Shown: positions 5,927-24,557 of the stretch, in pieces
Layout: the number at the start of each line of letters is the position of its first letter
How positions within the stretch are numbered: the stretch's first letter is position 1
IMG/VR virus record: IMGVR_UViG_3300021963_000249
Span: 1 to 41,568 of that record
Strand: one strand, 5' to 3'
Length of the DNA: 41,568 bases
Origin: a virus
The notes under the pieces: model-generated
Told to the model about the DNA's origin: nothing
The model's database searches: none
What the model saw: only the letters and a program-made list of their open reading frames with translations
Program-made: the position numbers and the translations under genes

Positions 5927-6745
5927 TTATTTTAATGCAGAGAGCAACGGATTCAGAGCGGACTGTACCACTTCTTCATCTGTCACAAAGGGGTCGATTT
6001 TATCGTAAGATCCCACCCACTCCCGTGCCTTTTCAAAATACTCTGGATCGTTCTCAATTCCAATGTATTGGCGGTTAATATTCTTGCAGGCAATGATTGT
6101 TGATCCTGAACCCATACAGTTATCTAGGATAGTATCACCTTCATTGCTGTATGTTTTGATAAAATACTCAATTAGAGGCACAGGTTTCTGTGTTGGGTGA
6201 AACTTTAAAGGATCATCGTTATTAATGACAGGAAACTGCAACACATCACGGGGATATCTTGTTGTTGAACCGCCAGGATTGCCAAGACGCTTCTCAACAT
6301 GGTTATAATTGCGTTTTCTGTCGGGAGGGGGCAACTGGTCCTTCGGCAGCACCGCGTTCATCGGTTTATGCCCTTGTGTCATTTGGGGATTGTATGTTGG
6401 CAACTTGCGATAGAAAACCAGCACATTTTCGTGCGCTTTCATAGGCATTTTCTTTGCATTTAGATGACCAGTTGCCTTGTTCTTTTCCCAGATCCATTCA
6501 TACTTGAAGTATTTCAGATTAGAACAAGCAAGAACCTTATCAAAGGGTGGTTGAGCAGTCAGTACAATCGCACCATTTTCCTTTACGACACGGTGATACT
6601 GTTCCCACAGTTGATCGAATGGAATCAAACAATCCCATTCATTCTGGGTGGTTCCATAAGGAAGGTCTGCAAAAACCATATCGACACAACCATCAGGAAG
6701 TGTGGACATAATCTCTAAACAATCGCCTTGAAACAGTTGATTCAT
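5927..6745 (-). CDS. Site-specific DNA methyltransferase (N6-A/N4-C, beta-type)
   Basis: 272 aa, N6_N4_Mtase family. Catalytic motif IV is DLPY at residues 27-30. The target-recognition region lies in about 90-180. HPTQKP is at 183-188, and the SAM-binding motif I, DNCMGSGST, is at 208-216, followed by IGIENDPEYF. This order (IV before I) is that of beta-class amino-methyltransferases, which methylate exocyclic amines of adenine or cytosine. It overlaps the upstream nuclease-like gene by 4 nt and is third in a helicase-nuclease-methylase set. It may protect phage DNA from host restriction or from the adjacent nuclease. Confidence 0.9.
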   Translation of the reverse strand: MNQLFQGDCLEIMSTLPDGCVDMVFADLPYGTTQNEWDCLIPFDQLWEQYHRVVKENGAIVLTAQPPFDKVLACSNLKYFKYEWIWEKNKATGHLNAKKMPMKAHENVLVFYRKLPTYNPQMTQGHKPMNAVLPKDQLPPPDRKRNYNHVEKRLGNPGGSTTRYPRDVLQFPVINNDDPLKFHPTQKPVPLIEYFIKTYSNEGDTILDNCMGSGSTIIACKNINRQYIGIENDPEYFEKAREWVGSYDKIDPFVTDEEVVQSALNPLLSALK

Positions 6746-7257
6746 ATTGACCTAATAAACCTCAAATCAAAATCATCAGACTCATCAAAATAATTCCGAG
6801 TCTCTTTGTTATCATTATACCCCATCAAAAAGAAATCAGAAAGTTCTGGATCGGCGTGTGCTGTTACAGTAGAACCATTATCTTTGATTTTATAAAATCT
6901 TGATGATGGAATACAGCACATTTTACCTTTTTTTACATCGGTAATAATGAAGTAATCAGCAAGTTTATCGGTATAGTTTCCAGATTTACGGCGATTTTTT
7001 AGAATTACCTTTCTCACTGCCATCTCAGATTTATTTTTCAACTGAGTCACTTTTGATTCATAAGTCTTATTGTCTGAACCAATCAAATCAATACCAGGAA
7101 GATTAACTCGTGTAAGTAATCCATTGCTGTACTCTGCAAGTGCTTTTTCCACAAGTTCACCTGCTTTTGGAAACCGAAGATTATCCTTCGTGTAGTCTTT
7201 AATTGTGCTCAGAAGTTTGGAAAATCGATCCAATTCAAAGGTAGTGAAATCAATCAT
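6742..7257 (-). CDS. Candidate PD-(D/E)XK nuclease
   Basis: 171 aa. The residue pattern fits the PD-(D/E)XK fold. A helix with Glu near 36 (GELVEKALAEY) is followed by Asp57 in GIDLIG, then Glu67-Ser-Lys69 in TYESKV and a Gln at 72. That is the usual E-D-ExK arrangement of restriction-type nucleases. The remainder (ADYFIITDVKKGKMCCIPSS) looks like further core strands. It is sandwiched with 4-nt overlaps between a DEAH helicase and a DNA methyltransferase, strengthening a restriction-like reading. I cannot name a characterised family; the nuclease call is inferred from motifs. Confidence 0.6.
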   Translation of the reverse strand: MIDFTTFELDRFSKLLSTIKDYTKDNLRFPKAGELVEKALAEYSNGLLTRVNLPGIDLIGSDNKTYESKVTQLKNKSEMAVRKVILKNRRKSGNYTDKLADYFIITDVKKGKMCCIPSSRFYKIKDNGSTVTAHADPELSDFFLMGYNDNKETRNYFDESDDFDLRFIRSI

Positions 7258-8489
7258 CGCTTTACAATAGAAATGGCAGGTTGACCTTGGTTGAACACGG
7301 TGTCCACCACCGCTTGCACCTTCTTAGCGGTGCTGATGCCCACAGAAGAGTACACAGGGATGCACACCAACCCAAAAGACTTAGTATACTGGGAAAGGTT
7401 TCCAGGGGCAATAGCGCCGCTCCTAAGCGCCTCTGCGTCGCTCTGGTGAAGGCGGATCACCCGACCGATGGTCTGAGACACACCGATGTAATCCATCGAA
7501 CGCATAAAGAGAACTGCTTCCAGACCAGAAACATTGATACCCTCAGAAAGAATGCTGTGGTGAAGAACCACAAACTTCTTAGAGTCATCCTTACCCCAAG
7601 CACTCAGAGTGTCAAAGAACACCTCACGGTTGACCTTCTGACCGTCAATGATTGCACCAGTCTTGGAAGTGATGTACATCCAAGAGAAACCACGATCTTC
7701 CAGTTGCTTACAGAAATCAGTCTGAGAAACCAGATTCTGAATCTGTTTAGTTGCCTTGGCACAGATCAGAACCTTCTCAACCTCCTGAGCATCAATGGTA
7801 GCGATCAAATTCTCACAATCAACATCAGCAACGATTTGACCCTTGCTCAGCATCTCAAACTGTTGCACCACAACCTTAGGAGGAACAATGAAACCACCTT
7901 CCACCAGTTCAGGAGCAGGAACATTGCAGATCACATTGCCATACACAGCAGCATCATTCATCCCAGGTTTGGAAATAGTAGCAGAATGCTTAGGAGTGGC
8001 AGTGAAGAAATAGCAGCGGTCAGCAGTAGAAGAGAAATGCTCGGTGGCAGGGAAGAAATGACGTTGAACAGAATTGTGTGCCTCATCAAAGTAAATCGTG
8101 TTGACTGCAATATCTGCCTGTTGTAGACGTTGCAGAGAGTTGTAGGTAGTGAAGATCAGTTTGTGACCAGGAGTTGACTCCACCCAAGAACGAATCACGT
8201 TAGGGCGAGTGCTGCTGAAATGATGAGTCTCACCACTGTGGACGTGCATCACGCGAGCATTGGTGATAAACTCCAAGAACTCGCAAGACAGTTGCTCTGC
8301 CAGCAGAATGCGAGGAGCAACTACAACAATAGTCTGAGGAACATCTTTGAGGAACTCACGCATTGCGTCAAAGATGGCGACGTTGGTTTTACCACCGCCA
8401 GTAGGAATAATAACTTGACCACGCAGGTACTTAGCAAGGGCATCCAGAGCACGTTGCTGGTGAGGTCGGAGTTGAATCACAGGTCTCAT
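7254..8489 (-). CDS. Superfamily 2 DEAH-box helicase (UvsW/Res-like)
   Basis: 411 aa with a full SF2 motif set: Walker A PTGGGKT at 29-35, motif Ia VVVAPRILLAEQ (56-67), DEAH at 135-138, TATP at 163-166, SEGINV at 315-320 and the arginine-finger motif QTIGRVIR at 339-346. It resembles ResIII/UvsW-type DNA translocases. T4 UvsW remodels branched DNA and R-loops, and Res subunits drive restriction. The gene starts the trio with the nuclease-like and methylase genes, with 4-nt overlaps, and follows an extended -10 promoter at 8503. Whether it acts in replication or recombination or in the adjacent nuclease-methylase pair is open. Confidence 0.85.
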   Translation of the reverse strand: MRPVIQLRPHQQRALDALAKYLRGQVIIPTGGGKTNVAIFDAMREFLKDVPQTIVVVAPRILLAEQLSCEFLEFITNARVMHVHSGETHHFSSTRPNVIRSWVESTPGHKLIFTTYNSLQRLQQADIAVNTIYFDEAHNSVQRHFFPATEHFSSTADRCYFFTATPKHSATISKPGMNDAAVYGNVICNVPAPELVEGGFIVPPKVVVQQFEMLSKGQIVADVDCENLIATIDAQEVEKVLICAKATKQIQNLVSQTDFCKQLEDRGFSWMYITSKTGAIIDGQKVNREVFFDTLSAWGKDDSKKFVVLHHSILSEGINVSGLEAVLFMRSMDYIGVSQTIGRVIRLHQSDAEALRSGAIAPGNLSQYTKSFGLVCIPVYSSVGISTAKKVQAVVDTVFNQGQPAISIVKR

Positions 8490-8560: not shown

Positions 8561-9043
8561 TCAGACTCCGTATTTGATTGCGATCGTAAATCTGTGCCGA
8601 TTTCTGAAAGCAGTTGCACGATGTAGTATACTAGCATCAAAGTATACCATACGATTCGGAATCGGTGTCACTCCATAGATTTCATTATTAACAATGAATT
8701 GAGTCTCACCACCTTCCTGATAATTCCAGGTTTTGTTCACATAATACAGAAATGTAATGTCACCAGGATCACCATCCGTATGAAAATATGGTTGCTCTGA
8801 TGGTGCAAAGCAGTTAATATACATTCGATATAAGAAAAGATTATCATTGACCAATGGTTTAGTCTTTGATTCAAACAATTTGTAAATCGAACTACGTTTC
8901 TCAATCTCGTGAATCATTCCAGTTGGTGGTAAATCATATCCATCAGTTTCACCATAAACATATGATGCATTTTCACAATAAAAAGTAACAGCATCAACAT
9001 CTTCTTTAACGAGAAACCTATCTTTGATATCAATCATTTCCAT
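8561..9043 (-). CDS. 2OG-Fe(II) dioxygenase
   Basis: 160 aa double-stranded beta-helix protein. The iron triad is visible as H88-x-D90 (PYFHTDGD) and H141 (SILHRATAF), with the 2-oxoglutarate-binding Arg in RNRHRFTIAIKY (149-151). Prolyl-hydroxylase-like oxygenases of this kind are frequent in cyanophages, and their substrates (protein or DNA) are generally unknown. Start is ATG 9043 or the in-frame ATG 9037; both overlap the upstream oxygenase gene slightly, so the two are probably co-translated. Confidence 0.85.
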   Translation of the reverse strand: MEMIDIKDRFLVKEDVDAVTFYCENASYVYGETDGYDLPPTGMIHEIEKRSSIYKLFESKTKPLVNDNLFLYRMYINCFAPSEQPYFHTDGDPGDITFLYYVNKTWNYQEGGETQFIVNNEIYGVTPIPNRMVYFDASILHRATAFRNRHRFTIAIKYGV

Positions 9044-9668
9044 ACGATAAAACTTTTATATTGAATGATATGGTAATTCTTGGATAATCTGTTTTTTTAC
9101 AAGGTAAAACTCGATGAACCAAATAAGAAGGAAACATTAATAAGTCTCCCTCTTCTACTTGTGGAACGTAAATCTCGCCCCATCTATTTGATTCAAACTC
9201 AACACTTAAATTTCTTAACTGTGCTAATGGATCTTTGAATTCTGGTGGACTGTGTTGCTCTTTATCGAAAGACAAAAAGTGAATACAAGAAAAATGACTA
9301 TGATTAAGTGGATTTCCTATATGATCATGTTCTTCTTGATATTCACCATCAGTATAGACATTATACCAAATCTTATTAATAGTAAATGAAAAATCTCGAT
9401 CAAAGATATGCTGCATACAATCAGTATATCGTCGAGTTACCATTTTCAAATATGGTGAATCATCAGAAAATATCTCAAATCCTTCTGGTTCACCATCAAA
9501 GGAAGTTTTAATCTTATTTGATGACCAATCCTTTGGAACTGAAAGATAATTAGAACTAATTAACATCTTACTTGAAAGATGATGTTTAAGTTCTAGATTA
9601 TCTTTAATCTTAGATTTGAATATTGTGATTGGAAATATTTCTAATCGTTCTGTTCCGGATTCAATCAT
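9030..9668 (-). CDS. 2OG-Fe(II) oxygenase (T4-like cyanophage type)
   Basis: 212 aa. The active-site strand is EEHDHIGNP, giving H114, D115 and H116 as ligand candidates; the distal His185 lies in PSYLVHRVLP and Arg197 in YPRITISFNI. This layout, with GDLLMFPSYLVH, is typical of the virion-associated or small 2OG oxygenase family found beside tail genes in cyanophages. Substrate unknown; hydroxylation of a structural or host protein is the usual guess. Immediately upstream of the second oxygenase at 8561-9043. Confidence 0.85.
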   Translation of the reverse strand: MIESGTERLEIFPITIFKSKIKDNLELKHHLSSKMLISSNYLSVPKDWSSNKIKTSFDGEPEGFEIFSDDSPYLKMVTRRYTDCMQHIFDRDFSFTINKIWYNVYTDGEYQEEHDHIGNPLNHSHFSCIHFLSFDKEQHSPPEFKDPLAQLRNLSVEFESNRWGEIYVPQVEEGDLLMFPSYLVHRVLPCKKTDYPRITISFNIKVLSYGND

Positions 9669-10079: not shown

Positions 10080-11717
10080 TTAGTAAATATCACCTCTAAT
10101 ATCTCCTCTATTATCAACACTATACCTAGTGTTTTCTGCCGAGATTGCTTTACCTCTTGATCCACCATTTCCACTGTTGTTGGTGCTACCACCATCTTGT
10201 CCCCAATTTCCACCATTGCCACCATTCTCACCATCTTCACCTCTCTGTGCCTCTCTAATCGTCGTTCCACCAGGGCAACTTCCAGAACTGTCACTAGTTT
10301 GTCTTAATTCGGAAACTTCAATACGAGCATTTGTATCCTCACCATCATTATCTCTTAATTTGATACCATTATTTTCTTTTTGTATTGGTCTTACATTACC
10401 ATTAATTTGAATTCTATATGTTTTTGCAGTGGCCTTAAATGAAAAATACCTAGTTCCAGAACTTTGGAAAGGCCATTCGTTCAACACAGGAGAACTACCA
10501 GTTCCATCTCTTACAAGTATTGAGCTGTAAGAAGTATCAGCAACATTTGGATCATCACTTGTTCTTAATGATAATGTGACACGACAATAACCTCTTCCAC
10601 CACCACCACTAAGAGTCAGGAATGCGTTGTTACTACCATCTTCGGTCCAATTGTAAGTAAAATTGGAAGTTGATGTTGTTGATCCTGGAATTGATGGTGG
10701 TGAACCTTCTTGACCTCTTTGTCCAGATAGTTCTGCATTTTGATTGTTATATCCTCTACCATTTCCACCTATACCACCAATGCCACCTACTCCACCTTGT
10801 GGATAAGTTCTTCGTTGGCAATTTCTAATTTGAACCGTATCGCACACTTCTTTACAAGTTTGTCTCTTACCAAATCCCGTACATTGATTTTTACAATTGC
10901 ACCTTCCGCTAGAACTGGTTGAAACTTCACTAAATCCACTAGGACATCCTGGTGCTCCTCCACATCCATTTGTACTTGTTGTATATAAGCACTCTCCATC
11001 TTGCCCCTTGTTACCAGTTCTTCCTCTTTCTCCTCCTCCACCACCACCGTAAATTTTTCCACCAGAATTTACGACAATAGTGTTGTTATTCCCAACATTT
11101 CCAAGATTTAAACCAGAAGTACCAGACTCACCTGATGGATCTGGACCTCCATTTCCACCACCTCTTCCACCATATCCCATTATTGTTCCATTGACAGTCA
11201 TTCTGACGTTATGAACAATGACTACTGGCGATAATTGTGCTCCAGCACATCCATCTCGAACACTTCCACAAGTTCCATTGATAAAAATTAATTTTTGAAC
11301 ATTTTTAGTTAGATTTCCAGTAAATCCTCCACCCTGACCATCTCTACCATTATATCCACCACCAGACCAATCAATTCCTCTATTGTTTGTATCAAATCTT
11401 CCCATTCTAAATCCAGGTTCTCCTGGATATGAATTATTATCATCAGTTCCAGATTGTATTGCTCTATATCTTTTTATTGAATTTCTAAATTGAGATATTC
11501 TTAAATTTCGATCTGTAGAAATTTGTTCATTCTCAGTTGAGTCTGGAACTATTGGATTTGATTCTGAAACATTTGTGTTTCTTCTAAGTTCAGATGCACT
11601 AATTGGTCCACTAGTAATTTCTTTAAAATTATTTCTCAAACTAGAAAATGCAATAGATCCACTTGAAAAAAATGGTGCATCCCCTTGACCTGGATTTTTT
11701 GTTACTGAAACTGACAT
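10080..11717 (-). CDS. Glycine-rich tail-fibre adhesin-like protein with cysteine cluster
   Basis: 545 aa. The N-terminal 50 residues (SGSIAFSSLRNNFKEI, then SASELRRNTN) form an anchoring module seen on cyanophage fibre-tip and needle proteins. Residues about 110-330 hold GG-rich blocks (GGRGGGNGG, GGIGGIGGNG) like the polyglycine-II sandwich of T-even gp38 adhesins. A cysteine-rich insert (CNCKNQCTGFGKRQTC...) lies at about 270-305. A beta-sandwich-like region (about 355-470) follows, then another glycine-rich block near the end. Inferred role: host receptor binding at the fibre or baseplate tip. GGAG precedes the ATG. Confidence 0.75.
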   Translation of the reverse strand: MSVSVTKNPGQGDAPFFSSGSIAFSSLRNNFKEITSGPISASELRRNTNVSESNPIVPDSTENEQISTDRNLRISQFRNSIKRYRAIQSGTDDNNSYPGEPGFRMGRFDTNNRGIDWSGGGYNGRDGQGGGFTGNLTKNVQKLIFINGTCGSVRDGCAGAQLSPVVIVHNVRMTVNGTIMGYGGRGGGNGGPDPSGESGTSGLNLGNVGNNNTIVVNSGGKIYGGGGGGERGRTGNKGQDGECLYTTSTNGCGGAPGCPSGFSEVSTSSSGRCNCKNQCTGFGKRQTCKEVCDTVQIRNCQRRTYPQGGVGGIGGIGGNGRGYNNQNAELSGQRGQEGSPPSIPGSTTSTSNFTYNWTEDGSNNAFLTLSGGGGRGYCRVTLSLRTSDDPNVADTSYSSILVRDGTGSSPVLNEWPFQSSGTRYFSFKATAKTYRIQINGNVRPIQKENNGIKLRDNDGEDTNARIEVSELRQTSDSSGSCPGGTTIREAQRGEDGENGGNGGNWGQDGGSTNNSGNGGSRGKAISAENTRYSVDNRGDIRGDIY

Positions 11718-11739: not shown

Positions 11740-13719
11740 TTAGTGGAAATCAGTCCAAGCCACACCAGTATATCCTTGGAATTTTTTAGTGTCTGTATTA
11801 AAAATAAATGCGCCTTCAACTGTTGATAGACCGACTCTTTCTGCTGTTGTTAGACGTGGTGGTAGCATATATGCGAGATCACCACCAAAGTTATTTTTTC
11901 CAGCATCTGCAAAATCAACAGCCGAACGATAGGATGTTGTTCCAACTCCTATTGCACAAGTTGAATCTAAAACAACAATTGTACTATTAATTCCAGAAAC
12001 TACGGTTGAATCGAGTAGTGTTATACCACCAAAAACACCAAGTGTACCACCTAAGGGTCCATTTGTATTACCAATTGCAACACTTTCTAATACACTAGGT
12101 CCAACTACTCTTAAAGAGTTGGATGTTGTTGTTGTTCCAATTCCTATATTTCCAAACAGAGCAAGATTTCCTCTTGCATCAATACCTGCGGTTGGTACAG
12201 TTGTTCCAATACCAATTGATCCAGCAACAAATGCATCATTGCCGATTGTAACATCGTAGAATGTTGAAACACCAGATGTTGCATAAACTTGCTGCGCTTG
12301 TAATGCGAAGATATTTCCAGAAAGGGAACCATTAACACTAAGGTTTCCAGAAATATCCACATTTCCACCAAACCAAGAATTGCCAGTTACGGTAGAAGTT
12401 CCAACAACGTGAAGTGTATTATCGGGATTTGTGTTTCCAAGTCCCAATCTGCCATCATATGTTAGAGTCATTAACTCTAAATTATTTTGTCCATAAATCC
12501 AGTTGAAACTTCCAGTTGTAATTCCTGCAACTGGTTGAGCACTATGAAGATAATAATTAAAGTTTCCAATATCACCGTTGATAATATCAAGACTTCTGGC
12601 AAAATTACCAAATCTTATGACAGCGGTACTATTTCCAACTCCTATTCCATAATTTTGCTGTTGTCCAATTGTGATTTGAGCACGATCTGAACCGATCACT
12701 TCTACTTCGGAAATACCAGATTTTAAAATCTGAATATCTTTTGTTGGTGATGTTGATCCAATACCAATTCTTCCATTTCCATCACTAACAGCTGAAAAAA
12801 TTGTTCCAGATGTTCCAACATTTAACCTTGATGCGGTTATTGTTTGTTGTACGCTAGATCCACTTACTACCAATTGAGTTGTTGTTACAGTACTTGAGGC
12901 AATATCATCAGCGGTTACATCTGTAACGGTTATGTCAGGACTTCCAGTTAAAAATCTTGCGAAAGTTGAAATTCCTGTTACATCTCCAGTTACATTTCCA
13001 AATAAATCACCATAAACATTTCCACCAACTGTTCCAATAAATCCACCAGTTGCTGTTATAACCCCAGAAACACTAATATTTGATGGCAATTTAGAATTTA
13101 ATAGAACTGGAATTCTATCGTTATTAATTGTTCCAGAACTGATGTTGCTTGCGTTGAGTAATGTTAAATCTGATCCAATTCCAACAAACTTTGCACCAGT
13201 TACAATTCCAGTTGCTACAATATTTCCATTTGAGTTGATACCAACACCATCTACAAATGCTCCTACATTATTTGTTCCTCCAATTTGTAGAGGATATCTT
13301 GGATCATTTGTTGAAATTCCAACAAATCCTTGTGCATAGATGCTGGTAAATCCCAGTCCAACATCAGTGTCTATCCATTGGGATGATGGTAAATTACTTA
13401 ATTTTCCACCATCCCCATAATAAGTGACAACACCAGAACCAGATGATGTAATAATTCCACTACGAATACTGACTCCACCACCAATAATAGAATCACCTAA
13501 TGTTAAACTATTAATTGATATATTTGTTGCGGTTAAAGATTGGGTATAGATCTGATTAGCAGTAACTAGACCGACTACCTTTGCAGTTCCACGAACATCC
13601 AAAGCTTCGGTTGGAATGGTTGTCCCAATTCCAACCAATCCAGTTGGACTTACAACTAGATTATCATCATCAACTTGTACACCATTACGAAAATTAAATT
13701 GCTTTCTGATATTCGCCAT
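11740..13719 (-). CDS. Tail-fibre protein with VGIGTTxP repeats
   Basis: 659 aa, starting MANIRKQFNFRNGVQVDDDNL. Short repeats of the type (I/V)GIGTTxPTxxLDVRG recur at about residues 30, 130, 320, 430, 500 and 525, the signature of beta-rich trimeric phage fibres. The sequence is rich in Ser, Thr, Gly, Asn and Val, with few Cys. The C-terminus (RVGLSTVEGAFIFNTDTKKFQGYTG) is the common fibre end module; no S74 chaperone domain is present here. A late promoter ATAAATA lies just upstream, overlapping the stop of the subtilisin-fibre gene. Confidence 0.8.
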   Translation of the reverse strand: MANIRKQFNFRNGVQVDDDNLVVSPTGLVGIGTTIPTEALDVRGTAKVVGLVTANQIYTQSLTATNISINSLTLGDSIIGGGVSIRSGIITSSGSGVVTYYGDGGKLSNLPSSQWIDTDVGLGFTSIYAQGFVGISTNDPRYPLQIGGTNNVGAFVDGVGINSNGNIVATGIVTGAKFVGIGSDLTLLNASNISSGTINNDRIPVLLNSKLPSNISVSGVITATGGFIGTVGGNVYGDLFGNVTGDVTGISTFARFLTGSPDITVTDVTADDIASSTVTTTQLVVSGSSVQQTITASRLNVGTSGTIFSAVSDGNGRIGIGSTSPTKDIQILKSGISEVEVIGSDRAQITIGQQQNYGIGVGNSTAVIRFGNFARSLDIINGDIGNFNYYLHSAQPVAGITTGSFNWIYGQNNLELMTLTYDGRLGLGNTNPDNTLHVVGTSTVTGNSWFGGNVDISGNLSVNGSLSGNIFALQAQQVYATSGVSTFYDVTIGNDAFVAGSIGIGTTVPTAGIDARGNLALFGNIGIGTTTTSNSLRVVGPSVLESVAIGNTNGPLGGTLGVFGGITLLDSTVVSGINSTIVVLDSTCAIGVGTTSYRSAVDFADAGKNNFGGDLAYMLPPRLTTAERVGLSTVEGAFIFNTDTKKFQGYTGVAWTDFH

Positions 13720-13735: not shown

Positions 13736-13742
13736 TATTTAT
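13736..13742 (-). promoter_or_regulatory. Late promoter ATAAATA
   Basis: Minus-strand AAATAAATAACT, 17 nt before the ATG of the repeat fibre and overlapping the stop codon region of the preceding gene. Matches the T4 late-promoter core. Confidence 0.65.
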
Positions 13743-16700
13743 TTGCCGTCATTCTTTTTTATATCATCAATATCATCTTTAAGATCTTTAATAGATTCAA
13801 TGAGTAGAGGGATCAATTTATCATATTTAACTGTTAGATAATCATTATCTGCTGGTGCAGGAGCAGAAGCTTCTGGCAATACATTTTTGACAATTTGAGC
13901 AGATACACCAGAATGTCTCTTATTTGGATCAAATCCCAATCTTTCACCAATTTCATTGAAATTGTAAGTAAAACCATCTAGTTTTTCTAATTTATCGAGA
14001 GCATTTTCAATTGGTTTGATATTTTCTTTCAGTCTCTCATCGGAAACTAGTCCAATAATATCATCACCAGCAACTATGTCACCTGTAACTATTAAATCTC
14101 CACCTCCAGTTATTGTTCCACCACCTGGTGCTGGTGGAACGTATGCTGGTCCAGCAGCACCAGATCCAACATATGCCTGATTTCCTGGTAAAACTCCCCC
14201 AGAGAACACATAATAAACTTCGGTTGATACTTGTTTAAATTCACCGTTAAAAGCAGTGATTTCCATATCATCCCAACCATACGTTCCATCACTATCTGTA
14301 AGTTGTAATTTTTTTGAGTTAGATGGATCAACTCTTAATTTTATAGTTTTTAATTTATCATAAGTAAGTTCACTCCTTGCACCAACTTTATAATAACCTG
14401 TTTTAATGTTCAATTCATAAGTAGCAGCATTTTCATCAAATTTTTTAATACCTAAAATTTCTATCTTGTGAATAAGACTAGAACTATTCGTTATAATAAA
14501 TCGTTCATTCGCTCCAAAATTACTAGCAATACCATAAGTTGAAGTAAAACTGGGGTTTGGTGTTCCGTTTCTAGTTGTAACTTCTTTAATTATTTTTACT
14601 GCTCTACCCATCACAGAAAATGGTACTTCCCATGCCGAGTCATTTGGACTGTCTCCCGGTCTAGTTCCAATAAAGAAATTAGAACTGCTTTGACTTTGTA
14701 TATTATTTCTCAAATAAGTTTTTAAGTCTACACTATTCATGTCTCTATTATTTTGGCAGAAACATGCAATTAATCCTGCTGCAACAGGTGTTGCTGCACT
14801 AGTTCCATTAAAATACTGATCATGATATACAATACTTGGTTCTGGTTGAACTGCACTTTGATAGTCCTGTATTACCGGTGTGCCCCTAGTTGGATTTCCA
14901 CAGGAATCAAATCGGGGAATAGGTTCTTCTTGTGGAGGAAATACAACAGGATCATCTATTATTGGTACTAATCTAATGCCAGCAGTAAGAGTACCATCAC
15001 CAGGAGCATAGAAATCTATCCCACTACCCTTAGTACTATAATCCACCCCCCAATTGCTGCCAAGATAATCATCTGCTCTTGCTAGTCTTTCTTTACCAGT
15101 TCCAGCAGAAAGGTATGTTGAGTTGGTTTCTTGAAATCTTGCCGGCGGTGTCCCCTGCGGAATCCCAGAAAAACTCTCTATTGATGTTGATCCAGTATAT
15201 TCATCATCAATTGCACCAATAATGAAAGTTTTAAATCTTTCTGTTTGACCATCAGTATATCCTATTTGTGCTGGATATCCTGGCCTATTGAAGTAGAATT
15301 TTTCGCCAGCACTGTTTTCAAAAATGTTATCAAAATCTTCATCTGTTGGAGTTCCCAAGTAACTTGAAGAATTACCACCAGCACAAACAAAATGGACGCC
15401 ACTTGATATTAATTCCTTTCCGGCAATTAAATATGATGCATCTTCAAAAAATAGTTCAAATTGTTTATTACGACTCGACAAAAATTTTGGAATCTCCGGA
15501 GAGTTTTGAAAATCAATCTCGAGCTTCTTGTATCTTTTTCCAGTACTCTGATCTATTATGTCGTTATCTCTTTTTATTTTAAAATTAAAGAACCCAGATG
15601 TAGTTCTATACTTGTAAAAAGCTCTTCCAGTCGTATCAGTTTTAGATGGATCTGCATATGGATAACCAAGCACTGGATCAGAATATGGTGAAAGTAAAAT
15701 TAGACTTATATTCGATGATGTTCCCCAACTATTTGAACTTACTGTTGGATTTTTTGTTCCAAATTTAGGATTTACTGGTTTATATTTGTGAAATATTTTT
15801 TGAATATCAAATACGGATTGCTGATCAATACTTCTTAGGAGACCACTGGAACTAAAACCCAGAGTTAAAGTCCATTTGTTTGAGTTGAATGCCCATCCAA
15901 AGTTTTTTCCATATGTGAGAGATGCACAAGGAGTTCCATGATCACCTGGGCGTTCGAACGCCCCGATAGCGGGAGGAACAGAAATTGCATTTTCTCCACA
16001 GGTGTTTTTTCTTGTATATCCTTGTGGTATGGGAATTGATCCAAAATCTGGAAAAGATGAAGATCTAAATTGTGGTCCACTCCACCAATCTCTTGCTACT
16101 TGTTCTTTTGGTACTGTTGTTCCATCCCATCTTTTTTCCAAACGATTTATTGGATCAACATCAAACCATTCGGGATCCAGATAGTATGGAGCGTCTAATA
16201 CAAGATCTAATAGACCACATCTACCATGCCTTGATAAAACATTTCCATAAACATAGTTTGGTGGATCAAAATATTCTTTACCAGATGATGATGCAGTAAA
16301 TTCCGGATGACCATAGAAAAATCCATTATCAACAACGATAACATCTATATCTGTTCCATCTGTGCTATAATCTATATCTTGAAATTTTACATCAAGAGAA
16401 TTTGATGAAAACTGATTTTGTTCTGATGTACATCTTAGTATTTGATATCCAACTCTATTTTGCTCTGCTGAAAATCTTGGATCAAATTTTTGATAATATG
16501 GTATTGACCATTCCCAATATCCAGCATTTACTGTGCTCCCATCATTGGCAAGCTTCAACAACTCCCCACAACTATCCTTTGATTGATTAAAACGCCTTAA
16601 TGATCTATAGTTTCTAACAGATTTACCAAATCTTTTAATATATGGTTCAATCTTCGGAGCAGATTCTGGGTGATAATATATGTCCAAATCAACTAATAAA

Positions 16701-16906
16701 ATACGATCACTTTGCCTTAAAAGTTCTGCCTCATCATCTGTCATCAAATAAGTGCTTCTAGTCTTACTATGTTTAATATCATTTACACATTCTATTGATC
16801 TTTCTGGAATGTTGTCTTCCAGAGTACCATCTTGCATTAGTAGTTTATGAACTACTTTCCAATCTTCTGGTGTTTTTGCTACGATTTGGTAATGATTTTT
16901 TTCCAT
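13739..16906 (-). CDS. Tail fibre with subtilisin-like protease and C-terminal S74 chaperone
   Basis: 1055 aa. Residues 1-75 resemble a propeptide (YQIVAKTPEDWKVVHKLL). Residues about 175-745 are an S8 subtilase with the complete triad: Asp193 (VVDNGF), His323 (GDHGTPCAS) and Ser703 (FNGTSAATPVAAG). The oxyanion Asn512 is in VCAGGN. Residues 750-930 are a beta-rich linker. The C-terminal 100 residues are an intramolecular chaperone (Peptidase_S74) with SDERLKEN at 955-962, where fibre proteins self-cleave before the Ser. No Sec signal peptide is seen. Inferred: a virion enzyme that digests host surface or S-layer protein, or processes virion proteins. AGGATA precedes the ATG. Confidence 0.85.
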   Translation of the reverse strand: MEKNHYQIVAKTPEDWKVVHKLLMQDGTLEDNIPERSIECVNDIKHSKTRSTYLMTDDEAELLRQSDRILLVDLDIYYHPESAPKIEPYIKRFGKSVRNYRSLRRFNQSKDSCGELLKLANDGSTVNAGYWEWSIPYYQKFDPRFSAEQNRVGYQILRCTSEQNQFSSNSLDVKFQDIDYSTDGTDIDVIVVDNGFFYGHPEFTASSSGKEYFDPPNYVYGNVLSRHGRCGLLDLVLDAPYYLDPEWFDVDPINRLEKRWDGTTVPKEQVARDWWSGPQFRSSSFPDFGSIPIPQGYTRKNTCGENAISVPPAIGAFERPGDHGTPCASLTYGKNFGWAFNSNKWTLTLGFSSSGLLRSIDQQSVFDIQKIFHKYKPVNPKFGTKNPTVSSNSWGTSSNISLILLSPYSDPVLGYPYADPSKTDTTGRAFYKYRTTSGFFNFKIKRDNDIIDQSTGKRYKKLEIDFQNSPEIPKFLSSRNKQFELFFEDASYLIAGKELISSGVHFVCAGGNSSSYLGTPTDEDFDNIFENSAGEKFYFNRPGYPAQIGYTDGQTERFKTFIIGAIDDEYTGSTSIESFSGIPQGTPPARFQETNSTYLSAGTGKERLARADDYLGSNWGVDYSTKGSGIDFYAPGDGTLTAGIRLVPIIDDPVVFPPQEEPIPRFDSCGNPTRGTPVIQDYQSAVQPEPSIVYHDQYFNGTSAATPVAAGLIACFCQNNRDMNSVDLKTYLRNNIQSQSSSNFFIGTRPGDSPNDSAWEVPFSVMGRAVKIIKEVTTRNGTPNPSFTSTYGIASNFGANERFIITNSSSLIHKIEILGIKKFDENAATYELNIKTGYYKVGARSELTYDKLKTIKLRVDPSNSKKLQLTDSDGTYGWDDMEITAFNGEFKQVSTEVYYVFSGGVLPGNQAYVGSGAAGPAYVPPAPGGGTITGGGDLIVTGDIVAGDDIIGLVSDERLKENIKPIENALDKLEKLDGFTYNFNEIGERLGFDPNKRHSGVSAQIVKNVLPEASAPAPADNDYLTVKYDKLIPLLIESIKDLKDDIDDIKKNDGK

Positions 16907-16918
16907 ATTTTTATCCTA

Positions 16919-19900
16919 TCACTTAGAGTTTTTAAGATCTTCAATTTCTTGCTTTAGTTCCTTAATTGCTTCTATGAGTAGTGGAACTAATTTATCATAT
17001 TTAACTGCCATATAAGTATTATCGAGCATCGCTGGTGCTGTTGCTTCTGGAAGAACTGCAAAAACATCTTGTGCAGATACTCCTGCGTGTGAAGTATTTG
17101 TATCATATCCAAGTGATGCACCAACTTCATTGAATGTATAAGTAAATCCTCTCAGAGACATAACTTTATCGAGAGCATTTTCAATTGGTTTGATATTTTC
17201 TTTTAATCTAATATCGGAAGCAAATGCAGTAATATCACCGCCTGCAATAATCTGACCAGAAATTGAAACCGATGCTCCACTAATATTTCCAGTAACTGCA
17301 AGACTTGCGCCGGTGATAGCGCCAGTTGCTGCCATTTTTCCAGTAACTTCAACACCATCTGTGACTGTTTTAATTTTTTCAGATCCATCATAATGCAATG
17401 TAACAGATCCGTTTTCTTGAAATAATGCTAATTGTTCAGTGTTTGCAGCATTCTTCACACTCAATGTATTAGTCTGAACAATTAGGCTTCCAGTACCAGA
17501 ATCTGCTATGTAACTATTTGAACCATCATGATAGATTGTTAAATCATCACTAGTTCCTAGTTTTAATAGACCATTATCATTTAGTTTAACGTTTGCTTTG
17601 AATAATGAATCATCATCAACAGTCAATTGCCCACAAATATTAACATCACCACCAATACCTACACCACCAGCAACAACAAGTGCTCCTGTTGTGCAACTTG
17701 TTGATTGTGTTGTATTTCTAAAATCAACACGTCCATTAACTCTCAAATTATTATTGAGAATTAACGCTCTATTCATTCTAATGTCGCCGTTAAAGGTGAC
17801 TGGTCCATCAAATTGTGAAAGAATCTGACCCGAGTTGCCACCTTCAACAAGAATTCTTTCTTTAACAATAACTTCATCAAATACAACACTCAGTCTGTTT
17901 GGATCCTCACCAGTAATTGTTGGTGTTGGAACATCAAATGTTGTTTGTTCGCCTGATTGTGCAGAATACTTGACGTTTCCAATATAGAAATCGCCATCAC
18001 TATTCATACCAGTGTACAGAACTGATCCACAAGAGGTTTCTTGTGATGATGCAAGATAATCTTCTTTCTCACTCAGAGTCTTAACTTGGACTTGTGGTAA
18101 ACCAGTTGAGTAGTTACCAGGACCATATCCAAGATATTCAAATGTGTGACCAGAAGCACGAATGATTGAAGGTCTGCGGAATTCAACAGGAGTTAGTTTA
18201 ATCTTCTTAATTAAAGATCCAGAAACGTGTGATTCGATAATAGTTCCCATCGAACCACGAATGACTTGGATCTGATTAGATCCTGCACCAGTGAGAGTGC
18301 TTGCTTTGACTCTCATAATTTCATTGCCAATTTGAATGTAAGATCCTAGTGGGAATCTAGACATTGTGCCGATGCCAGCGCCAGGAAGATCAATAATGAA
18401 TTGTTCTTCTGTCGTGATTGTCTGCCCAAGAATCAAGGTTTCATTATCAAAAATTGATAGAGATCTTACACCAAGATTCTCACCAAGATTATCTGCACTT
18501 GCGCTGTTTGCAGACATACCATGCTTCAATGCCCAAGCAGCAGTTGGAAGTGAAGTTGGAAGTTTAATTGTAAATTCATTAGGACTATTAACATTATTGA
18601 CAACGTAATCGCCAAGATTGTTATTATTACTGTCAAGAATTCTTAAAGCATTTCCTGCAAGTAGTCCGTGAGGTGAATTTAATGATTGATATGTTCCAAT
18701 ACCAGTAGTACCACTACCACTGAAATGTAATTGAGAAATTGTTACTGCTGGTCCAAGATTAATTACATATTGATTTGCAACGGCAACAGGATCACCTGCT
18801 GTTTTTGCAATTGAAATAGCATTCTTATTTGAAGTGTCAGTAATTCTAAAATATCCACCAGCAGTTGTTCCAATACCTGTAACTTGGACATAATTTCCAG
18901 TCGCTGTTGAAATACCAGCAGTATTGATGAGAATATTTGCCTGAGGTGTACCACCAATAACACTACTATCAAAATAGAGTTGCTCACCATTAGTATATCC
19001 AGATCCACCTTCAACAATTGTTGCTGCTGTTACTGCACCACCGCTTACAGTTACATTTGCAGTTGCGCCATCCCAAACAGCAGATGAAGGTGCTGCATTA
19101 CTGTTGAAAAGTCTTACATTATAATATGTTCCATTAGTGTGTCCAGATCCACCATTTAAAGTTGTATATTGTCTAACACCTGCTAATTGATGCTCACTAT
19201 CAAGAGTAAGTGTTGCAGAAGTTGGACTATTTGAAACTGCGGTTATCTTTTTAGCGTATGAGAACTTTTCTACAAACCTATCAATAGTCTCTCTTGTTAT
19301 ACTTCTCTTTAAATCATTAGTGACAACATCTCCGAGAGGGAATCTCTTAGCAAAGGTTTTTGCTGATGGAGGATTGTCATTGTAATTATCTCTATCTTGC
19401 TGTGGATAAAGATCTGTAACTTTTTGAGAATACTTATAGTCAGTAAACTCAGATGATACTGCATTTGCAGAGTTAAGAACATATAGGTAATAGACACCAT
19501 CTTGAATATTGTAGATATATGGTGTAACTACTTCTGATCTATAAACATAAAGATTGTCAAAAAGATCATTTCTTGTAAATCTTGGAAGATCTTTTGATCT
19601 TACATTTATATTACTGGTGAAAGTTCCTGGATTGTGAGTGATATTGAATATATCAATAGCACTATACGTGAAAGTTTTATCATTGATAATGGAATTTACT
19701 GTAAATACTCCATTATATCCAACATTATTTGTTGCGGAAGTATTAGTTGTACTTACAACATTATTAACAATAATCTTATCACCTGTTTTTAAATTATGTG
19801 TCGCATCTGACCGTACTGTAACAAGTTTAGTTCCAGAGTCATATGTGCAAGTAGTAATGAATTTTGGATTACGATTGTAGTGGTAGTCTGAAGTTGTGAT

Positions 19901-22417
19901 TGTAGTTTTGGTAAAATCAGCATCTTCTCTAACATTTGTAGAGCTCGAATCTTGAATGATAAATCCTTCGCTAGGTGCTCTACCATTTACGAGTTCTTTT
20001 GGAACAACATAACGAAGTTTGTAGATTTTTTCATCTAAACTTCTATCATCTTCTTTTCTTAGAACATAAGAAATCTCAGTTTCAGGAGTTGTGAGAGTGT
20101 TAATATATTGATATAATGCACTATTTGCATTAGTATGAACAAACCACTGTCCTTGATTTGAATCCCATTGAATTGGATGCCCCAATTCACCAGCTTCTTT
20201 ATCACAAACTCTACTTTCAATTCTAAGTTGCTCACCACCGTAACTTGTAATTGCTAGTGGAATTTGTGCAGAAGCATTGGTTCTAGAAGCAGCGATCTGA
20301 ATTTGTGTTGCACCCAAAGAGGTCTTCTTCTCAGAAGTTATTGCATAGTAAAGAACATTCTCTTCAAGACCTTCTGGAAGATCTCCAGTTTCACTGAAGA
20401 TTTTAATAGATTCACCATTTTTAAGGGAATGCCCACCAGTAATAGTATAAACAGTGCCATTAGAGTTATTTTCTAATCTTGTACTGTAAACCTTTGCAGA
20501 ACTATCGGTTCCAGAAATAGTTGGTGATCCAGAAGTAACTGGACCATTGGTCATTAAAATATTTGCAAAATTCGAGTTGCTATCAACATAAACACGATCA
20601 TTGATTCTAGCACCAATTCTATAACCTTGTGAAATAACTGGTGGTGGAATATCTTGGTTGGTATATCCTAAAAGATAGAGATGGTTGTTAATTCCAACTG
20701 CTTTTGTTTTTGTGACATCAAATTGAACCCATTCAATGGTAGAATCTTGACTGACAATTGCTCTTGGAGCAACAATAGATGTTACATAACCTTTATTATC
20801 TTTGTCAAATGCTGCTGCTTTGAATCCATCAGCAAATAGGGAAATTTGACCAAAGTTTGAGTTGGAGTTGGTAATAGATCCATCTCCACCACTCTTGGAA
20901 TCAAAGTGTCTAGTAAATCCAATCGCAAACACGGAAACAATCTGAATGAATGCATCATTCGTAAACTTAATGTGAGATGTTTCCCATCCCTTTCTATAAA
21001 TCGCCTCAGGATCTAAGTGATATACAAATGCCTGATTAGTTGATGATGATTGTGATGAAAGTGCTTCTCCTGTGACTTTTGTTATTCCAATACTATCAAA
21101 AGTTCTATTTGTTGGATTATACTTTGCAAATGCACGATCATCTTTTTGTAGCGAGACCGCAGTATACTGTGCAACAACCATCGAACGGAAACCTGCTGCC
21201 TTGCTTCCATCGGCGTGCATACCCTGCATACCCCAAACTGATCTCAACGAACAGTTAAAGATGTATGGAGATGCACCAGAAACGGTATCGGTTTCAATAA
21301 TAACTGCACCAGTTGGACCAGGAGCAAGTCCAGCAGCAGGACCAGCAGGAAGATTTGCTCTTACACTTAGAAGTGTGTATGTAAAAACAGTTTCACTAAC
21401 TACTTGTGCAACTTTTGTGGAAATATTGTAATCGTTTACATTAATTCCACGAATTTTAATCGGAGTTCCTGCTGTTAATCCATGTGGAACCTGAGTAGTG
21501 ACGGTTACAACAGTTCCAGGAGAAGCTCCATCACCAGAAATGATGTTTGAAATTGCAATAGGATCCGCAGCAAATGCGCCAACGATTTCCCATTCAGGTC
21601 TCTGTTTTGAGAAAGAACCTGGTTCTGCTGGATATTTTTGATCGATCTCTCTACCAGATGCTCTATTAAAAGCATTACTGACCTTGCTATAATACATATC
21701 AAGATCAGTGATTGCATAACCAGTTGGAATATTTACACCATCTGCATATTCAAATACAGTTAACTTATGGTGTGAAAATGTAGGTCTTGATTGATTATTT
21801 TGCGAAAAATCACTTGGATCTGTATATACTAACCCAAGTTCATTACCATCAAAAATAGAAAATTGCCAGAAATAACAAGCACCAGTAATTCTAAAAATAG
21901 CACTTGTTGGTGCATTAGGATCAGTTGGATTTGGAACATATTTTGGACGAATCTTAGTCTTTCTTAAATCTAGACCAACAATCGATGTTCCTCTTGGTAC
22001 AACAGCACCACCATTGATACTGTTGAATTTATAAAGAACGTTATTTTCCTGAGTTAAGTCAAAATTGCTGTTTAGAGTTAATGATAGTTCTGCACCAGCG
22101 AACATTTCTGTTCCACTAGGGGTTACTGCGGTTGCAACACCACCATTATCCTTGATGGCATAACCAGGTCTGTTATCAACTAAGTGCTCACCAGGAAACA
22201 ACAGAATTGTAGTTTTTTCTGTAATATCATTATCATTACCTCTCAGATATGAGAATCTTGCCGACTCAATCAGAGCTCTTTGAATCGTTTTAAAAGGCTT
22301 TGTTAATGAGTTACCTTGATTTTCAACACCATCAGTAGCATCAAGATCATTAGGATTAACATAGAGAATACGACCTTCTGTATTCTTGATAAAATTCTCT
22401 AACTTATTAAGAGGCAT
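16919..22417 (-). CDS. Giant structural/tail-fibre protein with C-terminal S74 chaperone
   Basis: 1832 aa, starting MPLNKLENFIKNTEGRILY. The N-terminal ~400 residues look like a right-handed beta-helix of the pectate-lyase type (LTKPFKTIQRALIESARFS, GTSIVGLDLRKTKIRP). The middle contains multiple beta-rich repeats (VPHGLTAGTPIKI; SPHGLLAGNALRI; THNLKTGDKIIV), each like a small fibre module. The last 100 residues are an S74 intramolecular chaperone with SDIRLKEN at 1734-1741, a close paralogue of the end of the subtilisin fibre. Such chaperones trimerise the fibre and are cleaved off. Probably a major tail fibre or whisker-like fibre. A late promoter lies upstream at 22451. Confidence 0.85.
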   Translation of the reverse strand: MPLNKLENFIKNTEGRILYVNPNDLDATDGVENQGNSLTKPFKTIQRALIESARFSYLRGNDNDITEKTTILLFPGEHLVDNRPGYAIKDNGGVATAVTPSGTEMFAGAELSLTLNSNFDLTQENNVLYKFNSINGGAVVPRGTSIVGLDLRKTKIRPKYVPNPTDPNAPTSAIFRITGACYFWQFSIFDGNELGLVYTDPSDFSQNNQSRPTFSHHKLTVFEYADGVNIPTGYAITDLDMYYSKVSNAFNRASGREIDQKYPAEPGSFSKQRPEWEIVGAFAADPIAISNIISGDGASPGTVVTVTTQVPHGLTAGTPIKIRGINVNDYNISTKVAQVVSETVFTYTLLSVRANLPAGPAAGLAPGPTGAVIIETDTVSGASPYIFNCSLRSVWGMQGMHADGSKAAGFRSMVVAQYTAVSLQKDDRAFAKYNPTNRTFDSIGITKVTGEALSSQSSSTNQAFVYHLDPEAIYRKGWETSHIKFTNDAFIQIVSVFAIGFTRHFDSKSGGDGSITNSNSNFGQISLFADGFKAAAFDKDNKGYVTSIVAPRAIVSQDSTIEWVQFDVTKTKAVGINNHLYLLGYTNQDIPPPVISQGYRIGARINDRVYVDSNSNFANILMTNGPVTSGSPTISGTDSSAKVYSTRLENNSNGTVYTITGGHSLKNGESIKIFSETGDLPEGLEENVLYYAITSEKKTSLGATQIQIAASRTNASAQIPLAITSYGGEQLRIESRVCDKEAGELGHPIQWDSNQGQWFVHTNANSALYQYINTLTTPETEISYVLRKEDDRSLDEKIYKLRYVVPKELVNGRAPSEGFIIQDSSSTNVREDADFTKTTITTSDYHYNRNPKFITTCTYDSGTKLVTVRSDATHNLKTGDKIIVNNVVSTTNTSATNNVGYNGVFTVNSIINDKTFTYSAIDIFNITHNPGTFTSNINVRSKDLPRFTRNDLFDNLYVYRSEVVTPYIYNIQDGVYYLYVLNSANAVSSEFTDYKYSQKVTDLYPQQDRDNYNDNPPSAKTFAKRFPLGDVVTNDLKRSITRETIDRFVEKFSYAKKITAVSNSPTSATLTLDSEHQLAGVRQYTTLNGGSGHTNGTYYNVRLFNSNAAPSSAVWDGATANVTVSGGAVTAATIVEGGSGYTNGEQLYFDSSVIGGTPQANILINTAGISTATGNYVQVTGIGTTAGGYFRITDTSNKNAISIAKTAGDPVAVANQYVINLGPAVTISQLHFSGSGTTGIGTYQSLNSPHGLLAGNALRILDSNNNNLGDYVVNNVNSPNEFTIKLPTSLPTAAWALKHGMSANSASADNLGENLGVRSLSIFDNETLILGQTITTEEQFIIDLPGAGIGTMSRFPLGSYIQIGNEIMRVKASTLTGAGSNQIQVIRGSMGTIIESHVSGSLIKKIKLTPVEFRRPSIIRASGHTFEYLGYGPGNYSTGLPQVQVKTLSEKEDYLASSQETSCGSVLYTGMNSDGDFYIGNVKYSAQSGEQTTFDVPTPTITGEDPNRLSVVFDEVIVKERILVEGGNSGQILSQFDGPVTFNGDIRMNRALILNNNLRVNGRVDFRNTTQSTSCTTGALVVAGGVGIGGDVNICGQLTVDDDSLFKANVKLNDNGLLKLGTSDDLTIYHDGSNSYIADSGTGSLIVQTNTLSVKNAANTEQLALFQENGSVTLHYDGSEKIKTVTDGVEVTGKMAATGAITGASLAVTGNISGASVSISGQIIAGGDITAFASDIRLKENIKPIENALDKVMSLRGFTYTFNEVGASLGYDTNTSHAGVSAQDVFAVLPEATAPAMLDNTYMAVKYDKLVPLLIEAIKELKQEIEDLKNSK

Positions 22418-22449: not shown

Positions 22450-23001
22450 TTATTTATCCCAGTAAATTTTACTTACCTTTGGCAAAATATCAAAGGCAAT
22501 AACAGTTCTTGTTTTAGTTGATTTGTTTTGGGGAACATAGTGTAAAGTATAAGATGGAACTATTACAATTGTTCCTTCTTTAATGTTTCTGAAATATCCA
22601 AATGTTGTCTCATCGGTTATAGGATCTTGCCAAGGTGCTATAAAATGAGTTGGTTTGTGAACTTCTGGGTCATATTCTAAGTACAAAACACCAGAAAATC
22701 CACGAGATCGGTGATTGTGAACATATTGATCATCACCTTGCTTATACTTAACTGCCCAACAGTCAGTTACTGTACAATTTACATTTATTTCTTCACAAAA
22801 TTTTTCTAGTTCTGGTCTAATAATATCGACAAAATATTTGAGGTAGTTATTATTGTTTGTTTGTCTATCAGTCTCAAAATTTTGAAGATCAGTTCTTATA
22901 AAGTTTTGATCGTTCAATTTACTAATTATTTTTTGTTTTTTATTGTTCCAATCACTAATTTGGTAATGAAATGATGGATACTCAAAAATAGGAAATTTCA
23001 T
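22450..23001 (-). CDS. 2OG-Fe(II) oxygenase, third copy
   Basis: 183 aa. Ligand candidates are H95-N-H97 (QYVHNHRSRGFSG) and H154 (PSYTLHYVP), with Arg165 (KTRTVIAFDI) for 2-oxoglutarate. The KEGTIVIVPSYTLHYVP strand is the same fold signature as in the oxygenase at 9030-9668, though overall similarity is low. It lies between tail-fibre genes, suggesting hydroxylation of a fibre or another structural protein, or a role in host modification. Substrate unknown. Confidence 0.85.
   Translation of the reverse strand: MKFPIFEYPSFHYQISDWNNKKQKIISKLNDQNFIRTDLQNFETDRQTNNNNYLKYFVDIIRPELEKFCEEINVNCTVTDCWAVKYKQGDDQYVHNHRSRGFSGVLYLEYDPEVHKPTHFIAPWQDPITDETTFGYFRNIKEGTIVIVPSYTLHYVPQNKSTKTRTVIAFDILPKVSKIYWDK
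22451..22457 (-). promoter_or_regulatory. Late promoter ATAAATA
   Basis: Minus-strand GGGATAAATAAAAG, 34 nt before the ATG of the 1832-aa fibre gene and overlapping the stop codon of the upstream oxygenase gene. Confidence 0.65.
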
Positions 23002-23348: not shown

Positions 23349-23818
23349 TTTTTATTCTTACCCCTGTAAGTGTCAGTTTGTGCGTGGCAGTTGGGGCACA
23401 AAATACGAAGATTTTCTAAACGATTATCGTGATGGTTGCCGTTTATGTGATCAAGTTCAATCGGTGCTGGTTGTCCGTTCCATTCAGTTATACCACAACA
23501 TTCACACTTATGTTGTTTGAGACCTTCTGCAATTAATCTTTTTCTTAAACTGTTTGATGTGATTATAAATTCACAATCTAACTTCAAATATTCTTGAATA
23601 TCTCTTCTTGGTCCAAATGCTTTTCCTTTATTCCACGCTTTTGGATCAGTAAAATGATCTATTGATATATTAAGTTCTTTTACTCTATCGTGAAAACATT
23701 TGTAATTTCCACCTGCTGCTTTTAAATTTAACTTCAATAAAACTTCTCTTATTGATTGTGAAGTTTTAATCGCATCAACAAACTCTTCATTTGTTGACTT
23801 ATATCCATTTCTCAACAT
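23345..23818 (-). CDS. HNH homing endonuclease next to intron-split tRNA-Leu
   Basis: 157 aa. Residues about 8-75 form the helical DNA-binding part common to free-standing phage HNH enzymes (NEEFVDAIKTSQSIREVLLKL, then NYKCFHDRVKEL). The C-terminal HNH/zinc module is C105-x2-C108, the DH pair at 123-124 (IELDHINGNHHDN), Asn132 (DNRLENL) and C141-x2-C144 with His145. These enzymes nick or cut DNA and promote transfer of their own gene or a linked intron. It is 46 nt downstream of a tRNA-Leu gene with an ORF-less group I intron. It has its own TATAAATA promoter, flanked by an 11-bp inverted repeat. Confidence 0.9.
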   Translation of the reverse strand: MLRNGYKSTNEEFVDAIKTSQSIREVLLKLNLKAAGGNYKCFHDRVKELNISIDHFTDPKAWNKGKAFGPRRDIQEYLKLDCEFIITSNSLRKRLIAEGLKQHKCECCGITEWNGQPAPIELDHINGNHHDNRLENLRILCPNCHAQTDTYRGKNKK

Positions 23819-23820
23819 TT

Positions 23821-23859
23821 AAGTAAACATAACTATTATTATTTATAATATGTTTACTT
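23821..23859 (-). repeat. 11-bp inverted repeat enclosing the HNH late promoter
   Basis: AAGTAAACATA (minus 23859-23849) can pair with TATGTTTACTT (minus 23831-23821), leaving a 17-nt loop that contains TATAAATA. The 3' arm ends two bases before the HNH ATG. A long transcript reading through the tRNA would fold this hairpin on the start; one from the late promoter would contain only the 3' arm. Confidence 0.75.
23840..23847 (-). promoter_or_regulatory. T4-type late promoter TATAAATA
   Basis: Exact TATAAATA on the minus strand within TATTATAAATAATAAT, 15 of 16 bases identical to the late promoter of the GIY-YIG gene at 2644-2651. It lies in the loop of the inverted repeat, 22 nt before the HNH ATG. 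Confidence 0.75.
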
Positions 23860-23864
23860 TTAAG

Positions 23865-24146
23865 TAGGAGCGGCGAGACTTGAACTCGCATAGCCGAAGC
23901 CGACGGATTTTCTTACCACTACGACTTTCGCCGCCTCATAGAGTTTGTGGTCTGGACTATACCTTCACCATACCTTTCAGATTAGGTGCTCCCCGTCTAG
24001 TCTCTACACCTTCATCTTGCGATGCTTGGCTCGGTATTGCCATTTTACAGGTTTCACCGAATTTGAGGAGTTACACTCATAAGGTTTCCCAAATGAGGCT
24101 CAATTTTACATAAGTCCGTTGTGTCTACCGATTCCACCACGCTCCC
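23865..24146 (-). tRNA. tRNA-Leu(UAA) interrupted by a group I intron
   Basis: Exon 1 is 24146-24112 (GGGAGCGTGGTGGAATCGGT...ACGGACTT) and exon 2 is 23911-23865 (AAAATCCGTCGGC...CGCTCCTA). Spliced, they give an 82-nt class II tRNA. The 7-bp acceptor stem pairs GGGAGCG with CGCTCCT. Anticodon stem CGGAC/TCCGT-type pairing, a variable arm CGGCTTCGGCTATG, T-loop GTTCAAGTC and discriminator A are present. The break lies between U34 and A35 of the UAA anticodon, the same place as the cyanobacterial and plastid tRNA-Leu intron. CCA is not encoded. It probably supports translation of UUA/UUG codons in an AT-rich phage, if the intron splices. Confidence 0.9.
23912..24111 (-). ncRNA. 200-nt group I intron in tRNA-Leu anticodon, no ORF
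   Basis: The 5' exon ends in CTT, which can pair with an internal GAG (TTGAGCC) as P1 with the required U-G at the splice site; the intron ends in G. Conserved core strings match the cyanobacterial tRNA-Leu intron in order: TCGGTGAAACCT, GGCAATACCGAGCCAAGC, GTAGAGACTAGACGGG (minus of about 23991-24008), then TATAGTCCAGACCACAAAC. A GCGAAAGTCG hairpin comes before the 3' end. Length is 200 nt, shorter than the roughly 250-nt Anabaena form I remember. No endonuclease ORF lies inside. Likely self-splicing by inference only. Confidence 0.88.
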
Positions 24147-24189
24147 GTGATGTGAGACCATTATAACTCAAAGAGTTGTAGTGGTCAAG

Positions 24190-24262: not shown

Positions 24263-24266
24263 ACGA

Positions 24267-24354: not shown

Positions 24355-24375
24355 AAAAAACCCTTAGATTAGGGT
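24355..24375 (-). terminator. Rho-independent terminator after phd-like gene
   Basis: Minus strand ACCCT-AATCTA-AGGGT followed by TTTTT. The antitoxin stop codon lies in the loop, and the tRNA cluster begins at once downstream. Partial readthrough would feed the tRNAs; the 5-bp stem is modest. Confidence 0.6.
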
Positions 24376-24542: not shown

Positions 24543-24557
24543 CTCAGTTGTTTCGGA

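Follow-up and report, generated by a model that had tools for sequence, protein, structure and literature searches.

The window, by which is meant the whole 41,568-nucleotide stretch of IMG/VR virus record IMGVR_UViG_3300021963_000249, comes from a virus related to viruses of marine cyanobacteria. By DNA, its nearest isolate is Synechococcus phage S-SRM01, and the nearest isolates infect Synechococcus. On the minus strand, an open reading frame encodes a protein with an N-terminal propeptide-like domain, a subtilase (S8) domain and a C-terminal S74 intramolecular chaperone. The features of this protein and of its neighbours are as follows.

16919..22417, minus strand: large tail fibre gene P0003 (phrog_529), upstream of the S8-S74 gene, with its own S74 domain; the likely S74 donor
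13739..16906, minus strand: S8-S74 tail protein ORF, 1055 aa, ATG at 16906
16667..16906, minus strand: N-terminal domain, I9 propeptide-like, residues 1-80 (AlphaFold topology and Pfam matches of relatives)
16457..16666, minus strand: low-confidence linker, residues 81-150 (AlphaFold)
14567..16456, minus strand: subtilase (S8) catalytic domain, residues about 151-780 (Pfam, AlphaFold, VIA-align Z 30)
16328..16330, minus strand: codon of catalytic Asp193, motif VVDNG, 94 of 94 aligned ORFs
15938..15940, minus strand: codon of catalytic His323, motif DHGTPCAS, 96 of 96 aligned ORFs
15371..15373, minus strand: codon of oxyanion Asn512, motif CAGGN, 94 of 94 aligned ORFs
14798..14800, minus strand: codon of nucleophile Ser703, motif NGTSAATP, 93 of 93 aligned ORFs
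14123..14566, minus strand: linker or beta-rich region, residues 781-928, strands at low confidence, without a Pfam match
13742..14122, minus strand: short stem and S74 intramolecular chaperone, residues 929-1055 (Pfam and fibre homology)
14042..14044, minus strand: codon of the putative S74 autocleavage residue Ser955 (Ser-Asp site, Ser955-Asp956), kept in six S74 tails
14027-14029, minus strand: codon of S74 Lys960, at +5 from Ser955
11740..13719, minus strand: tail protein gene P0002 (phrog_3269), downstream of the S8-S74 gene, syntenic in the related contig L033 and with a homologue in S-SRM01
10080..11717, minus strand: glycine-rich P0004, related by homology to the S-SRM01 'adhesin tip complex'

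Hub/lysozyme, baseplate and tail-tube genes lie farther out in the window. The S8-S74 gene is placed in a tail-fibre gene cluster, between P0003 on one side and P0002 and P0004 on the other, in keeping with the preliminary description of its product as a fibre protein. Two 2OG-Fe(II) oxygenase genes (phrog_81; 22450-23001 and 9030-9668) flank the fibre cluster, adjacent tRNA genes (Met, Ile) occupy 24189-24355 between the tail-hub and fibre genes, and a tail-hub ORF at 30758-32668 includes an M23-type metallopeptidase-like region, its S-SRM01 counterpart being annotated M23.

In Pfam, the protein matched Peptidase_S8 over residues 187-742 (E 2e-12, 47.3 bits against a curated cut-off of 21.8) and Peptidase_S74 over residues 955-1013 (E 9e-16, 58.3 bits against a curated cut-off of 22), the latter bearing out an earlier assignment of the C-terminus as an S74 fibre chaperone. 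Residues 3-399 fell into phrog_9158, a function-unknown PHROGs group. The catalytic residues follow the Asp-His-Ser order of S8 peptidases, within DxG, HGT and GTSxAxP motifs, and the oxyanion Asn is present. Conservation was evaluated in an alignment of 95 distinct relative ORFs plus the window protein, the counts listed above covering the rows without a gap at the column. Asp193, His323, Asn512 and Ser703 were invariant wherever aligned, in proteins with identity to the window protein as low as about 23%. The positions and order proposed for these four residues before the analysis were confirmed. Such invariance of the triad and the oxyanion Asn is expected if selection maintains catalysis, and the alignment indicates that the active site is under strong purifying selection.

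An AlphaFold model (AF2) of residues 1-790, built on 72 relatives, had a mean pLDDT of 80.9 and a pTM of 0.82. A first model with 17 rows (A2) had a pLDDT of 44; it was left out of the fold search and redone with the 72 rows. The ten-residue blocks around Asp193, His323, Asn512 and Ser703 had pLDDT values of 90-96. Asp193 closes strand 188-193, His323 lies just before helix 324-332 and Ser703 opens helix 702-718, a predicted placement that is the canonical subtilase arrangement. Structure prediction had been suggested as a check on the preliminary description, and in the model both the fold and the secondary structure place the triad as in subtilases. The best structural matches in Foldseek and VIA-align were subtilases of the proteinase K group, consistent with a subtilisin alpha/beta fold (Z 30). 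In VIA-align, Meiothermus keratinase matched the model over 276 residues at 2.4 Å (Z 30.8) and aqualysin I over 271 residues at 2.2 Å (Z 30.4), and PCSK9 was also among the high matches. The S8 observation is not due to chance: no substitution occurs at the four residues in any row that covers them, and the predicted fold resembles solved subtilases with a Z of about 30. In a viral structure library, the top match was SSCSM1_228, the S8 protein of S-SCSM1, followed by the S8 proteins of ACG-2014e and ACG-2014h; the S-CAM1 'putative proximal tail fiber protein' was among the next few.

The possibility was considered that the domain is a subtilisin-like fold with a structural role only, as in the tail-sheath domain PF04984, since one domain of tail sheath proteins is called subtilisin-like (PMC12796325). 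The window protein, however, matches PF00082 and not PF04984, its triad is complete and invariant, and it has an I9-like N-domain. The tail-sheath fold was rejected on the lack of a PF04984 match and the intact triad, and a structural-only role is highly improbable.

A propeptide-like N-terminus had also been noted in advance. This is supported by the model, in which residues 1-75 to 1-80 adopt a beta-alpha-beta-beta-alpha-beta topology with a pLDDT of about 90, and by the relatives, Inhibitor_I9 being the top Pfam family in 7 of 34 of their N-domains (best E 0.0012). The N-domain of the window protein itself had no Inhibitor_I9 match in Pfam and is therefore named I9-like rather than I9. When compared by hhalign with the BPN' propeptide, it gave P 0.0006 but a probability of 29%. 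Among the PDB sequences, the N-domain profile matched nothing beyond ribosomal S4 and a single subtilase propeptide, at an uninformative E of 0.08-1. The resemblance to I9 is weak at the sequence level. The residues following the N-domain vary among relatives and therefore no propeptide cleavage site is claimed. The position of the linker at residues 81-150 holds larger domains in relatives, an esterase in S-TIM54 and an uncharacterised insert in giant S8 proteins.

The I9-like domain is kept in most family members. Its retention, together with the high structural match to PCSK9, would also suit a protein in which S8 cuts its own propeptide only, remains inhibited and acts as a binding scaffold. 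The best structural matches of all, however, are active proteinase-K-type enzymes. The full conservation of the motifs is compatible with single-turnover as well as multiple-turnover use, and the scaffold is only weakly disfavoured on that ground; overall it is judged improbable.

The fusion of S8 with S74 was found in the window and in two other contigs, 3 of about 96 family ORFs, and the rarity attributed to this pairing by the preliminary description thus holds within this S8 family. The other carriers, 3300029930_000011 (L033) and 3300017917_001716 (L034), have the same architecture, with the S8-S74 gene directly downstream of an S74 fibre, and their S8-S74 proteins are 47-49% identical to the window protein over the full length, with shorter loops. 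In L033, the homologues of P0002 and P0004 are next in order after the S8-S74 gene. An assembly chimera was rejected, as L033 and L034 have the same fusion at the same place beside the fibre. In the S8 tree, made by FastTree, which flagged long branches, the three proteins form one clade with support of 99. The sister of this clade (99) consists of giant S8 proteins of about 1900-2180 aa, several of them with Ig-like domains.

The S74 tail of the window protein matches the C-terminus of the neighbouring fibre at 63% over 116 aa. Across the clade, the S8-borne S74 tails match one another at 71-79% and the S74 of the adjacent fibres at 58-63%, and the S74 tails of the adjacent fibres match one another at 77-88%. 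These values point to the neighbouring fibre gene as the probable source from which the S74 module was copied. The comparison would fit one event, in which the fibre end that encodes S74 was duplicated onto an S8 gene in the common ancestor of the three lineages and was then inherited vertically, since the S8-borne S74 tails are closer to one another than to those of the fibres beside them. The Ser before Asp and the Lys at +5 that mark S74 domains are present in each of the six S74 tails that were compared. By analogy with the endosialidase S74, we take Ser955-Asp956 with Lys960 to be a putative autocleavage site.

The first scan for S8-family relatives yielded 22 IMG/VR loci, to which eight phage-record loci were added. 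In the second, at least 489 IMG/VR stretches were found to encode relatives, of which 80 were kept. The 95 ORFs aligned with the window protein were drawn from these sets. Five relatives lie on genome contigs, of which four belong to MAGs and the fifth to a single-cell assembly of Pelagibacteraceae; these are probably phage contigs within those assemblies. PF00082 was already noted in the records of P-SSM2 and S-SSM7 (T4-GC 292), and the S-SCSM2R record names a 'peptidase S8 family domain'. The family HMM matched P-SSM2 297 at E 5e-100 and S-SCSM1_228 at E 8e-91. As in the T4-GC 292 tail S8 family, the window has the N-domain and S8 in one ORF among tail and fibre genes. No paper on this S8 family was found in the open-access literature that was searched, which makes for a weak negative. 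The S8 family itself is known and widespread, and a tail-borne S8 protease is not a one-off; the distinctive part is the S74 pairing alone. The S8-S74 version is a small new branch of this family, which is functionally unstudied as far as could be found.

At the C-terminus of other family members there are Ig, He_PIG, Ig-like surface or LamG modules, and one member has an esterase as an insert. Such modules are expected of receptor-facing proteins. Many relatives stop right after S8, without an adhesion module. The insert in S-TIM54 (L005, 7998-14417) is esterase-like (BD-FAE/COesterase) and lies between the N-domain and S8, at residues about 227-291; the protein also has Ig domains, and the two enzymes lie on one ORF annotated as a virion structural protein. 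A plastocyanin-like copper-binding domain was detected inside the S8 region of the L030 protein (5995-8367, residues 410-490, E 3e-5), and L007 may have a similar insert. Two S8-family ORFs lie close together in L083, L091, L104, L106, L075, L050 and L084; the pairs of L050 and L084 consist of a first ORF and, immediately after it, a shorter S8-like one.

Phages commonly have late proteases for the maturation of virion proteins, and the S8-S74 gene is encoded among fibre genes. The protein could then be a morphogenetic protease that trims phage structural proteins (fibres, adhesins) at assembly, and not host proteins. However, S-SRM01 retains homologues of P0003 (52%), P0002 (41%) and P0004 (43%) with the gene order unchanged and with no S8 gene between the fibre and the P0002 homologue. 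The protease is therefore accessory and not essential for fibre assembly. Furthermore, the fusions with Ig, LamG and S74 are more in line with an adhesin bound to the particle than with a processing enzyme in solution. A morphogenetic role is considered unlikely, although it ranks first among the rivals of the best reading, followed by the PCSK9-like scaffold and then by an intracellular protease. Inside the adhesin cluster of S-SRM01 (L116), a flavin-dependent halogenase gene (23681-25138) lies between the P0002 and P0004 homologues.

SSCSM1_228 (QFG06492), a relative with the same N-domain and an S8 domain with the same triad motifs as the window protein, is tagged 'baseplate wedge subunit (virion protein)' in the S-SCSM1 record. 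Mass spectrometry of CsCl-purified S-SCSM1 particles identified 45 virion proteins (PMC9602691); by our own count, 48 CDS across the record carry the virion-protein tag. Some predicted baseplate hub genes of S-SCSM1 are without the tag, which therefore appears to track detection and not annotation. Taken together, the record tag and the tag count strongly suggest that SSCSM1_228 was detected in purified virions by mass spectrometry. For the S8-S74 protein of the window, we infer presence in the virion. An intracellular or lysis protease, one that cleaves host proteins within the infected cell or during lysis and not on the virion, would agree with the lack of an obvious signal peptide on inspection of the S8-S74 sequence, and a Ser protease could have cytosolic targets. 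The tag on the S-SCSM1 relative argues against such a role, as does S74, an assembly domain of fibres and tailspikes, and it is regarded as quite improbable.

The protein is probably a virion-borne, self-processing tail subtilase that acts on host-surface proteins. The I9-like N-domain would aid the folding of S8 and then be removed by S8 itself, as in a zymogen. S74 would trimerise the stem and then release itself by cleavage at Ser955-Asp956, so that as many as three protease heads would stay behind on a fibre-like support within the tail adhesin cluster. During infection, these heads of the virion may cleave a host-surface protein, exposing or loosening the receptor layer. The entry role put forward in the preliminary description is partly supported; S-layer or giant surface proteins would be putative substrates, and a cyanobacterium the putative host. 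A broader reading is more tentative, at somewhat under an even chance: that T4-like cyanophages have widespread, modular, self-activating subtilases which are carried on the virion and digest proteins of the host surface at adsorption, one clade of which forms a trimeric S74-chaperoned fibre head with a chaperone captured from the neighbouring fibre gene.

To our knowledge, glycans or peptidoglycan are the described targets of nearly all receptor-side enzymes of phage tails. If T4-like cyanophages do have a conserved family of tail-borne proteases, the protein layers of marine picocyanobacteria would be a barrier worth an enzyme. The S8-S74 clade would be an example of a fibre chaperone module copied onto an adjacent enzyme.

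The secreted subtilases aqualysin I, proteinase K and Meiothermus keratinase have the catalytic fold in common with the window protein over 271-276 residues (2.2-2.6 Å, Z 29-31), whereas identity is about 20% and the window protein has long inserted loops, a phage context and an S74 tail. The T4-GC 292 proteins PSSM2_297 (AAX44674) and SSSM7_232 (ADO98297) have the same N-domain and S8 layout over most of their length and the same triad, and the T4-GC 292 genes of P-SSM2 and S-SSM7 adjoin tail fibre genes; however, these proteins are 22-32% identical to the window protein and stop after S8, with no S74. SSCSM1_228 ends in LamG/ConA lectin domains where the window protein has S74. Fibres and tailspikes chaperoned by S74, such as the endosialidase, the neck appendage protein and the long tail fibre distal subunit (6f45), have the C-terminal S74 with Ser-Asp and Lys at +5, but their passenger is a fibre shaft or a glycosidase, whereas here it is a subtilase.
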